This document shows positions 40,201-64,000 of a stretch of DNA of 64,000 nt, piece by piece. Under the pieces are notes generated by a model, which saw nothing but the letters and a program-made list of their open reading frames with translations, was not told the origin of the DNA and searched no databases. The translations under genes and the position numbers were made by a program. Each line of letters begins with the position of its first letter. Position 1 is the stretch's first letter. Source of the stretch: Beroe forskalii (taxonomy: Eukaryota > Ctenophora > Nuda > Beroida > Beroidae); the NCBI GenBank assembly GCA_011033025.1, contig WFMF01000583.1, positions 33,261 through 97,260 on the forward strand, read 5' to 3'.

Positions 40201-43200
40201 CGTGTGGAAAGGGATCGGGATGAGAGAGATCGACTCGAAAGAGAATATACTGAACGAGATCAAGCAGAGAAGGATCGAGGTGATAGGAAAGATCCTGGCT
40301 ACTATAAGAAGGACGACTCTGGAGGGAGGAAGTCGGGCTATAAAGATGATTTCAAGGTCAGTTATCAATAGTATTACTATCTTTTCCACTACCATTCTGC
40401 TGGATGAGTCATTCTCTTGAGATATTATAGGAATTGTGTAAGTTTGCACTTTGCATGTTATGTATCATTATACCATTCCACCACTCCCCCTTTGTGCCTC
40501 TCAATCTTTTGTTACTCCTTGGGGTTTGGCCCCTCCACGACCCATTACTCAATCTAAACGAATTTAATTATTAGTTTATCTTCTAAAAGTTTAATTTCCT
40601 TCAGCCTCAGCCATATAAGAAGGAAGAAATGAAAGACGATAAAAAGAAGGATAAGCCTGAGAAAGGGAAGGTGAGGGAGGATAAGAGGCCTCGTTCAAGT
40701 GAGGAGAGGGCTGAGAAAACACGGCTATCAAGGGAGGAGGAGCTGCTGGACGAGATCCGGAGCATCAGCGAGGAAATAAACAAGACTAAAAACAAAAGAG
40801 AGGGCAAGTCACCGTCCTCTTCTTCAGAAAAGAAAGACAAGAAAGACAAGGTGAAGGATGTCGACAAAAGGAAGAAAAAAGAGGTAGCCATGGGATTCAG
40901 ATTCTTTGTAAATTTAGCACCTGTTTGCTTGCTCGTTGACGTCAGATGGTGGATTTGTATTTATTGATGGGATGATAATAACGTCTAAAATGGGTTAACA
41001 TTTATGCTCACCTAGGGCAAGAAGAACAAAGAAAAGCATGCTATTTCCACACAGGATAAATACGAGAAGATTCTGAAGGACAAACTGAAAGGTACATGAA
41101 CTCAAGATCATCATTGCATGCCTTACTAAAATTGATTTTAGCATACTTAAATGCTTCTGAAAATTGCTTTTGAAAGGTTCGCAATCAATTTGGATGCTAC
41201 CGATAACGGAAGCATGAGTAAGCAACCTGTCTTCTTCGGCATTCATTTCTTGATCTTACTACCTTAAGACATAACAGTCACGTTGAGCACCTCAGCGTAA
41301 ATATTATGTCCGTGAAAATTATGTCCGTGAAACAAATGTCCGTGATCTTCAGGTCCATGAAAATAAAGTCCAGTTTTTTCTCTTATAATTTCTAGTGTAC
41401 AGTGACAAATTATCTGACTTTACCTCTTTGGACACAAAATAATAAAATTTTTCCGGAAATCATAGTTTTTAATGCGTGGTAACTGTGATATGAAAATAAG
41501 TTATCATTAACAAATAATATTGAAAAATACTCAATTCAAGTAATTTAATCTTGGAAAAAAATGTCCGCGAAGTTTTATGTCCGTAAAACTAAAGTCCGTG
41601 ATAATTATGTTTGATAAGGTACCTAACAATACAGAGGAACAAACGTAAGTATCGTAAGAATGGCATAAACTTCATGTTTGTTACTGTTTCAGAACCGTCG
41701 TCCCAGTCCCCAGAAGAAGTGTCAGTACGGGGGGCGGTAACCACCGCAACCCTTCCTCCCCCTCCAGCCCCGCCCACTCTCACCGTGAAGAAAAAGAGTC
41801 TTCTGGAGGATAGCTCCAGCAGCAGTGCTAATGTAAGTATGATAATGCCCATGTTATCCTGATTATTTACTTTACAGTATATGAGTTGTTCAAATTTAGT
41901 CCAAGATTTTGCATTATATGATATGTATGAATAAAAGTAACAATATATATTGCCTAATTATATAAATAAACATGAACAGATAATACAATTACATCCGATT
42001 ACATAGATCATTATAATCCCTCCAGGAGGTCTCAGATGAGGAAATGGCTGAACCTGACGTATCACCAGATCCAGTGCGACCCACTCCCTCTCCCTCACCC
42101 CCATTAGACCCCCTGGCTGGACTGCCCCCTTACTACCCTGCTCTACAGGGCTGCAGGTTAGAGTTATTCCCTCCCTCACCCCCATTAGACCCCCTTGCTG
42201 GACTGACCCCTTACTACCCTACTCTACAGGGCTGCAGGTTAGAGTTATTCCCTCCCTCACCCCCATTAGACCCTTGCTGGACTGCCCCTTACTACCCTGC
42301 TCTACAGGGCTGCAGGTTAGAGTTATTCCCTCCCTCACCCCCATTAGATCCCTGTTGGACTGCCCCCTTACTACCCTGCTCTACAGGGCTGCAGGTTAGA
42401 GTTATTCCCTCCCTCACCCCATTAGACCCCCTGGCTGGACTGCCCCTACTACTGCTCTACAGGGCTGCAGGTTAGTATTCCTCCCTCACCCCCATTAGAC
42501 CCCCTGGCTGGACTGCCCCTTACTTCTGCTCTACAGGGCTGCAGGTTAGAGTTATTCCTCCCTCACCCCATTAGACCCCTTGACTGCCCCTTGCTACCCT
42601 GCTGGACTGCCCCTTATTCCTCCCCCATCACCCCCATTAGGCCCCTTGCTGGACTCTACCCTGCTCTACAGGGCTGCAGGTTAGAGTTATTCCCTCCCTC
42701 ACCCCCATTAGACCCCCTTGCTGGACTGCCCCCTTACTACCCTGCTCTACAGGGCTGCAGGTTAGAGTTATTCCCTCCCTCACCCCCATTAGACCCCTTG
42801 CTGGACTGCCCCCTTACTACCCTGCTCTACAGGGCTGCAGGTTAGAGTTATTCCCTCACCCCATTAGACCCCTTGCTGGACTGCCCCCTTACTGCAGGTG
42901 GACCCTCCCTCCCCATTGGACCCCTTGCTGGACTTCCTCCTTACTACCCTGCTCTACAGGGCTGCAGGTTAGAGTTATTCCCTCCCTCACCCCCATTAGA
43001 TCCCTGGCTGGATTGCCCCCTTACTACCCTGCTCTACAGGGCTGCAGGTTAGAGTTATTCCCTCTGCCCCTCTGGACTGCCCCCTTACTACCCTGCTCTA
43101 CAGGGCTGCAGTTAGAGTTATTCCCTCCCTCACCCCCATTAGACCCCCTTGCTGGACTGCCCCCTTACTACCCTGCTCTACAGGGCTGCAGGTTAGAGTT

Positions 43201-61941: not shown

Positions 61942-64000
61942 GTATGTTGCAGGCTGAGGATGAGGTATGTTGCAGGCTGAGGATGAGGTATATTGCAGAC
62001 TGAGGATGAGGTATATTGCAGACTGAGGATGAGGTTTGTTGCAGACTGAGGATGAGGTATGTTGCAGGCTGAGGATGAGGTATGTTGCAGACTGAGGATG
62101 AGGTATGTTGCAGGCTGAGGATGAGGTATGTTGCAAGCTGAGGATGAGGTATGTTGCAGGCTGAGGATGAGGTATGTTGCAGACTGAGGATGAGGTATGT
62201 TGCAGACTGAGGATGAGGTATGTTGCAGGCTGAGGATGAGGTTTGTTGCAGACTGAGGATGAGGTATGTTGCAAGCTGAGGATGAGGTATGTTGCAGGCT
62301 GAGGATGAGGTTTGTTGCAGACAGAGGATGAGGTATGTTGCAGACTGAGGATGAGGTATATTGCAGACTGAGGATGAGGTTTGTTGCAGACTGAGGATGA
62401 GGTATGTTGCAGGCTGAGGATGAGGTATGTTGCAGACTGAGGATGAGGTATATTGCAGGCTGAGGATGAGGTATGTTGCAGACTGAGGATGAGGTATGTT
62501 GCAGGCTGAGGATGAGGTATGTTGCAGACTGAGGATGAGGTATGTTGCAGGCTGAGGATGAGGTATATTGCAGACTGAGGATGAGGTTTGTTGCAGACTG
62601 AGGATGAGGTATGTTGCAGGCTGAGGATGAGGTATGTTGCAGACTGAGGATGAGGTATATTGCAGACTGAGGATGAGGTTTGTTGCAGACTGAGGATGAG
62701 GTATGTTGCAGGCTGAGGATGAGGTATGTTGCAGGCTGAGGATGAGGTATGTTGCAAGCTGAGGATGAGGTATGTTGCAGACTGAGGATGAGGTATATTG
62801 CAGACTGAGGATGGGGTTTGTTGCAAGCTGAGGATGAGGTATGTTGCAAGCTGAGGATGAGGTATGTTGCATGCTGAGGATGAGGTATATTGCAGACTGA
62901 GGATGAGGTTTGTTGCAGACTGAAGATGAGGTATGTTGCAGGCTGAGGATGAGGTATGTTGCAAGCTGAGGATGAGGTATGTTGCAGGCTGAGGATGAGG
63001 TATATTGCAGACTGAGGATGAGGTTTGTTGCAGACTGAGGATGAGGTATGTTGCAGGCTGAGGATGAGGTATGTTGCAGGCTGAGGATGAGGTATGTTGC
63101 AGGCTGAGGATGAGGTATGTTGCAGACTGAGGATGAGGTATGTTGCAAGCTGAGGATGAGGTATGTTGCAGGCTGAGGATGAGGTATGTTGCAGACTGAG
63201 GATGAGGTATGTTGCAAGCTGAGGATGAGGTATGTTGCAGACTGAGGATGAGGTATGTTGCAGACTGAGGATGAGGTATGTTGCAGGCTGAGGATGAGGT
63301 ATGTTGCAGACTGAGGATGAGGTATGTTGCAAGCTGAGGATGAGGTAAGTTGCAGGCTGAGGATGAGGTATGTTGCAGGCTGAGGATGAGGTATGTTGCA
63401 AGCTGAGGATGAGGTATGTTGCAGACTGAGGATGAGGTATATTGCAGACTGAGGATGGGGTTTGTTGCAGACTGAGGATGAGGTATGTTGCAGGCTGAGG
63501 ATGAGGTATGTTGCAGACTGAGGATGAGGTATGTTGCAAGCTGAGGATGAGGTATGTTGCAGACTGAGGATGAGGTATGTTGCAGACTGAGGATGAGGTA
63601 TGTTGCAGGCTGAGGATGAGGTATGTTGCAGACTGAGGATGAGATGAGGTATGTTGCAGGCTGAGGATGAGGTATGTTGCAGGCTGAGGATGAGGTATGT
63701 TGCAGACTGAGGATGAGGTATGTTGCAGACTGAGGATGAGGATGTTGCAAGCTGAGGTATGTTGCAGACTGAGGATGAGGTATGTTGCAGAGGATGAGGT
63801 ATGTTGCAGACTGAGGATGAGGTATGTTGCAGACTGAGGATGAGGATGAGGTATGTTGCAGGCTGAGGATGAGGGTATGTTGCAGGCTGAGGATGAGGTA
63901 TGTTGCAGACTGAGGATGAGGTATCTGAGGATGAGGTATGTTGCAGACTGAGGATGAGGTAAGTTGCAGGACTGAGGATGAGGTATGTTGCAGGCTGAGG
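61920..64000 (+). repeat. 23-bp minisatellite made of an EXOSC9 exon end plus its 5' splice site
   Basis: About 90 copies of GCTGAGGATGAG|GTATGTTGCAG run to the window end. The first unit is the end of exon 61821-61941 (codons AEDE, donor GAG|GTATGT). Each unit carries both TTGCAG (acceptor-like) and GAG|GTATGT (donor-like) around a 12-nt in-phase segment. Variants are GCT/ACT/AGCT and GTATAT/GTTTGT. Spurious 450-650-residue frames on the minus strand come from the stop-free repeat. Confidence 0.92.

Follow-up and report, generated by a model that had tools for sequence, protein, structure and literature searches.

The window and its genes

The stretch of DNA analyzed here (the window) comprises 64,000 nucleotides of the ctenophore Beroe forskalii (positions 33,261 to 97,260 of contig WFMF01000583.1, or C673, in a genome assembly of 216 megabases and 1134 contigs), and its right end (base 64000) is the end of the contig. 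From 39.6 kilobases (kb) of the window onward, it encodes CDK11 and then EXOSC9, both on the plus strand, and in both genes tandem arrays run across exon borders. The exons of the two genes, built by hand, are open in frame and bounded by consistent splice signals. Two of the array-bearing introns are fixed by protein alignment: the alignment of the CDK11 part with human CDK11B (E 4.8e-106) is unbroken at 42156/52062, and the EXOSC9 protein aligns with human RRP45 (E 3.6e-76) gaplessly across 57875/59283. The latter alignment stops before reaching a putative further EXOSC9 exon, which is placed by splice signals, frame and order. The exons and arrays concerned are the following, with lengths in base pairs (bp) and arrays as called by Tandem Repeats Finder:

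42026..42156, plus strand: CDK11 exon ending ...QGCR, with its last ~67 nucleotides forming the exon portion of the 81-bp unit (gene model, CDK11B alignment)
42090..44425, plus strand: CDK11 donor array, unit of ~81 bp consisting of ~67 nucleotides of exon end and 14 nucleotides of intron (several overlapping rows of the program)
46926..47056, plus strand: duplicate of the CDK11 exon above, within a diverged segmental copy (sequence comparison)
46990..48029, plus strand: copy of the CDK11 donor array in the segmental duplication, unit of ~79 bp
51952..52085, plus strand: CDK11 acceptor array, 52-bp unit, 2.6 copies
52062..52236, plus strand: first exon of the CDK11 kinase domain, with the real acceptor at 52062 (gene model, CDK11B alignment)
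57738..57875, plus strand: EXOSC9 exon 6, ending ...SLKTQ (gene model, RRP45 alignment)
57852..59020, plus strand: EXOSC9 donor array, 33-bp unit consisting of 24 nucleotides of exon and 9 of intron, 35 copies
59283..59332, plus strand: EXOSC9 exon 7 (gene model, RRP45 alignment)
61821..61941, plus strand: putative further EXOSC9 exon (splice signals, frame and order)
61921..64000, plus strand: EXOSC9 donor array, 23-bp unit consisting of 21 nucleotides of exon plus gt, at least 90.7 copies

The introns of the two genes also hold other open frames. A same-strand long open frame in the largest CDK11 intron (49150-51330) appears, by eye, to encode a receptor-like protein with cysteine-rich motifs and a transmembrane part, and the EXOSC9 intron that separates exons 7 and 8 contains a minus-strand open reading frame (59780-60800).

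Tandem arrays across exon borders

Four arrays span exon borders, three of them at donors (the real donors of the gene models being 42157 in CDK11 and 57876 and 61942 in EXOSC9) and one at an acceptor (52062). The initial annotation, made from the sequence by eye, had described the repeat unit at the three donors as the end of a coding exon joined to its 5' splice site and amplified up to about 90-fold, and Tandem Repeats Finder together with the gene models bears out both the anatomy and the amplification, which reaches at least 90.7 copies in the 23-bp array. When copies are counted by an exon-end anchor, GT is retained in 22 of the 24 copies of the CDK11 donor array, in 31 of 31 copies of the EXOSC9 33-bp array and in 80 of 84 copies of the 23-bp array, the last of which has at least this many copies, given that it is cut off by the end of the contig. 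The triplication of a CDK11 3' splice site, also noticed initially, is found as described: the 52-bp unit repeats the splice site with the exon start in three copies at 52062, and the exon is entered only from the last of these.

The CDK11 exon and its donor array have a second version (12 anchor copies, GT in 11) within a tandem segmental duplication (41274-46183, ~4.9 kb, versus 46186-49660, ~3.5 kb) the main pieces of which are 85-97% identical. The second array is not independent of the first because it lies inside this diverged copy, and the two segments could alternatively be merged haplotypes. The duplication carries two CDK11 exons, their array and part of the receptor-like gene.

The 33-bp array has the look that is usual for a homogenized minisatellite, with 22 of its 33 segments identical; at its edges, in this one array, the first copy is of the majority type and the last is divergent. 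The acceptor of EXOSC9 exon 7 lies outside the array.

Recurrence elsewhere in the genome

The same anatomy is not confined to these two genes. The sample used to look for it consists of 22 stretches of 10 kb taken by position, two of them (L010 and L011) on the contig of the window itself, and three kinase pieces, 25 loci in total; in the 22 stretches, 12.7% of the bases are locally repeated, low-complexity sequence excluded. As the initial annotation held for the window, different genes share the border anatomy, which recurs in three sampled loci (L014, L016 and L021), all with acceptor-type border repeats. In L016, one donor region has imperfect copies, one acceptor has a 101-bp duplication, and a 10-bp array adjoins another acceptor; in the transporter gene of L014, an acceptor and the start of its exon are copied in a long series. 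Hand-placed borders fall under the repeat mask in 3 of 10 cases in L021, 3 of 6 in L016, 4 of 33 in the two window genes and 0 of 15 across L015, L031 and L013. Border arrays are real and recurrent in this genome.

The genes in L021 and L016 were first recognized by eye, and we take them to be UBLCP1-like and CHMP4, respectively; the labels SLC22, PIAS, MFS transporter and PALS1-like were likewise first given by eye. Profile searches match three L021 exons to consecutive parts of the HAD-IIID phosphatase profile (1-33, 34-65 and 68-107, fragments below the whole-protein cut-off of the family), L016 to Snf7 (2-50, 53-101 and 106-154), L014 to a sugar/cation transporter profile, L020 to the RanBP zinc finger and L015 to PDZ. 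The pieces tried for the PIAS and HECT labels yielded no profile match, so that these labels remain tentative. The first 45 residues past the repeated acceptor in L014 have no profile match either, and this border therefore rests on splice signals and frame.

Two observations in these loci were made in passing. In the CHMP4 gene (L016, 627-2810), a 10-bp unit repeated ~221 times takes up most of an intron and reaches the acceptor. In L013, a 20-nucleotide piece of a HECT-like exon, with an internal CAGGT, has a copy with one change inside the intron immediately upstream (9333-9352 and 9473-9492).

Are exon borders hit more often than other positions?

The initial annotation took the shared anatomy as an argument against chance and named, as the result that would speak for coincidence, a frequency of arrays at borders no greater than at random intronic positions. 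This comparison was made with 60 exons (120 borders) computed in the 25 loci by a chained exon picker, with splice matrices derived from 40 hand-annotated introns and a codon table compiled from the exons built by hand for CDK11 and EXOSC9 together with eight open frames, one per kinase locus; an earlier, simple picker was discarded for the chained version because it placed false exons inside arrays. The test is independent of our own choice of borders and dependent on the training set, and the computed set probably includes some false exons, which would dilute any excess. Junctions turned out to be no more repeated than introns: junction-centered 20-mers are locally copied at 6 of 120 borders (exact interval 1.9-10.6%), compared with 6.8% at intron positions 80-300 nucleotides from the border, a ratio of 0.74 (bootstrap interval 0.18-1.64; seven variants of the test gave 0.56-0.84). 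Two of the six repeated borders are the ends of a single coding-repeat exon, and three border repeats seen by eye were missed by the strict windows of the picker (the L021 donor at 7397, the L016 donor at 2978 and the L016 acceptor at 2815). Exon interiors are repeated at a rate of 1.1%, a figure without independent weight, since the count left out exons with more than 30% repeats; it rises to 6.5% when they are included.

At the level of events, the 141 arrays, with unit lengths summing to 4831, hit borders 6 times against 3.0 expected (p 0.083). A Tandem Repeats Finder score cut-off of 150 leaves 4 hits versus 1.71 expected (p 0.095), and removal of two doubtful borders (L014 7356 and L020 9950, with arrays judged to be coding) leaves 4 versus 3.0 (p 0.35).

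Genome-wide word counts point the same way. The donor word AGGTAAGT forms 347 tandem triples in 8045 occurrences (43 per 1000) compared with 274 in 9058 (30 per 1000) for the dinucleotide-matched non-donor word AAGTAGGT; among the matches listed, these fall into about 10 and 12 separate arrays, respectively, and 14 for a further donor word, AGGTATGT. In the 22 sampled stretches, all words with the composition of AGGTAAGT average 17.5 tandem triples per 1000, and 14 donor-like words yield no tandem triples in 111 occurrences, against 3.8% for their reversals. Similarly, the donor motif occurs in the units of the 61 sampled arrays about as often as in dinucleotide shuffles (11 versus 8.5 ± 2.2 and 6 versus 5.4 ± 1.7 at the two highest cut-offs).

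The principal rival explanation is that splice borders are true hot spots of duplication, where breaks linked to transcription or a polymerase that pauses at the exon end, for instance, would make arrays arise several-fold more often than elsewhere, and several results speak for it or against a passive origin. Three successive borders of L021 bear repeats. The event-level ratio is about 2 to 2.5, and with a score cut-off of 80 the excess becomes nominally significant (6 versus 2.39, p 0.035). The donor motif is found in 8 of the 20 arrays of the window compared with 4.9 ± 1.7 in shuffles, and the 11 occurrences in sampled array units exceed the 4.2 ± 2.1 in equal-length non-array pieces, an excess that base composition may explain. 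AGGTAAGT read backwards is far rarer in tandem (49 in 10531 versus 347), as is AAGTAGGT read backwards (10 in 10110), and AGGTATGT has 393 tandem triples against 9 for its reversal, which is the only control for this word. An enrichment of donor words deduced from the backwards control (7-fold for AGGTAAGT and 44-fold for AGGTATGT, in raw hits) was dropped because the matched word and the in-sample baseline show that backwards words are poor in arrays. Finally, 24 hand-built introns, three of them from the MFS gene of the window and the other 21 from the sampled loci, hold 18 arrays, of which 10 are placed in the outermost tenth of the positions open to them (p 2e-6) and 6 bear a junction.

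The hand-built introns count against pure chance, and there may be a modest excess at borders. These introns were, however, partly noticed through their arrays, and the null model forbids arrays that cross a border, so that the computed-exon, event-level and word tests outweigh this result; in the 16 CDK11 and EXOSC9 introns, 3 of 12 arrays, a count that excludes the 23-bp array for want of a known downstream exon, lie in the outer tenth (p 0.11). Against hot spots also stand the computed-exon ratio below one in the main test and in all seven variants, the lack of donor motif excess over shuffles in the sampled array units, and the matched non-donor word that is similarly often in tandem. We therefore regard border hot spots as unlikely, and a little less likely still the specific version in which exon borders of this lineage are birthplaces of minisatellites, with decoys at several percent of splice sites, at least three times the rate per base of intron interiors and a link to transcription or splicing. 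As to the claim of more than chance, border arrays are frequent here, yet borders are not clearly hit above other intronic positions, and a splice-junction-specific mechanism is not supported.

Decoy splice sites

The outcome envisaged initially, tandem decoy splice sites, is present in the form of repeated donors and acceptors alike. By a scoring matrix built on 40 donors of the same genome, the further donors equal or exceed the real one in 21 of 21 cases in CDK11, in 29 of 30 in the EXOSC9 33-bp array and in 60 of 79 in the 23-bp array. Of these decoys, only 2 of 21, none of 30 and none of 79, respectively, would leave the frame open if used. With decoys about equally strong and nearly all frame-breaking, the first donor would have to be picked among equals, as far as coding capacity can tell.

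The full strength of the decoys could also indicate that selection favors the copies, either because redundant splice sites or exon-end enhancers aid splicing or because isoforms with varying repeat number are of use, and CDK11 donors 2 and 3 would indeed add an open in-frame stretch, lengthening the product by 27 or 53 codons. All other decoys would break the protein if used, however, and the uniform strength is explained by homogenization, as in the 33-bp segments, which makes this explanation very unlikely.

Origin and maintenance of the arrays

The arrays are probably ordinary minisatellites that began with a duplication straddling an exon border by chance and that persist because one intact border remains. 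A short duplication would arise between short matches, such as the GAGA that is present at the start of the 33-bp unit in the exon and again right after the last copy; the occurrence of this motif in both exon and intron suits slippage or microhomology-mediated duplication, and from this one case we infer such an origin of the seed. The copy number would then grow on the intron side by slippage or unequal exchange, with the splice site as a passenger in the duplication. Purifying selection is expected to purge duplications within exons unless these preserve the frame and to tolerate those at borders because the outermost copy still makes a complete exon end. The false sites would be ignored by splicing, presumably because a donor joined to the upstream exon, or an acceptor joined to the downstream exon, is favored.

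Two observations bear on the selective part of this scenario. The period is divisible by three in 14 of 19 arrays in long open frames versus 25 of 79 others (Fisher p 0.0013), a bias that we read as the mark of an exonic selection filter. In a minus-strand gene of L020 (8290-8374), a 41-bp duplication copies the coding end and the stop codon into the 3' flank, with no splice site involved, which suggests that the tolerated position is the border between constrained and free sequence rather than the splice site as such. With respect to the common mechanism proposed initially, the tolerance of copies as long as one functional site remains is retained, whereas a junction-specific mechanism finds no support in the computed-exon comparison.

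Relation to mirages, intron gain and minisatellites

The initial annotation knew of no description of such a feature, yet the same anatomy is on record in lancelets. According to two reports (PMC3087553, PMC3902484), mirages are tandem duplications in lancelet genes that resemble minisatellites and span exon-intron boundaries; they were named in Adh3 and found in the globins BflGb6 and BflGb9 and in PGBD5, with troponin C and others cited as further cases. Either border can be affected, many AG/GT signals are kept, the edges of a cluster escape homogenization, length varies between haplotypes or somatic cells, and splicing is reported not to be disturbed in the tested cases. In anatomy, the CDK11 and EXOSC9 arrays correspond: the tandem unit lies across an exon border, 5' and 3' borders are both affected, many but not all copies keep AG/GT, and expansion is on the intronic side. 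The unit lengths are comparable (10-160 bp in the lancelet accounts, 15-101 bp here), the copy numbers differ (2-7 in the globin and PGBD5 mirages, ~90 in the 23-bp array), and so do the genes affected. By anatomy alone, the arrays described here are mirages, a known kind rather than a new one. In the titles and abstract beginnings covered by the literature search, there is no sign of mirages having been surveyed genome-wide.

Intron gain by tandem genomic duplication (PMC2891723, PMC4974935) likewise involves the copying of a segment that holds AG/GT. The anatomy of the arrays would fit this model (the Rogers model, in which an AGGT-containing exon segment is duplicated), and the mirage literature proposes the same for the lancelet globins. 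The introns here, unlike those, show no sign of being new as far as the human alignments go: the flanking coding sequence is old, with no gap in those alignments across the border, and the array does not reach the acceptor of EXOSC9 exon 7, so that a record of intron birth is highly improbable. Ordinary intronic minisatellites resemble the arrays in unit size, homogenized variants and range of copy number and differ from them in that the unit here includes coding sequence and a splice signal. An assembly artefact, which the break of the contig within the 23-bp array, of uncertain length, might suggest, can be practically dismissed given that the copies differ by point changes and indels and that the phenomenon is seen on other contigs.

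Other repeats in the window and the sample

Within an MFS-transporter intron of the window, two arrays of 11-bp units (6356-6483 and 6744-7000), by eye apparent reverse complements with inverted flanks, form a large inverted repeat. Elsewhere in the window, 16-bp arrays (22958-23918) start ~25-65 bp from the acceptor of a minus-strand exon that may be PIAS-like. Degenerate TTAGGG-type arrays lie far from contig ends in the window (9932-9991 and 34890-34985) and in L018 (1015-1089).

Implications

The border arrays seem to follow incidentally from the abundance of tandem repeats throughout this genome. What makes them valuable is how many equal decoys they contain and that a few percent of borders are affected. 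At such a rate (6 of 120), very many genes in this genome would carry border arrays, which is a warning for gene annotators. The genome also lends itself to asking whether mirages have any particular tie to splice sites, and the answer here leans to no. Even if the splice sites are passengers, EXOSC9, with about thirty donors of equal strength in series of which the first alone would keep the frame open, provides a sharp natural experiment on site choice by the spliceosome.

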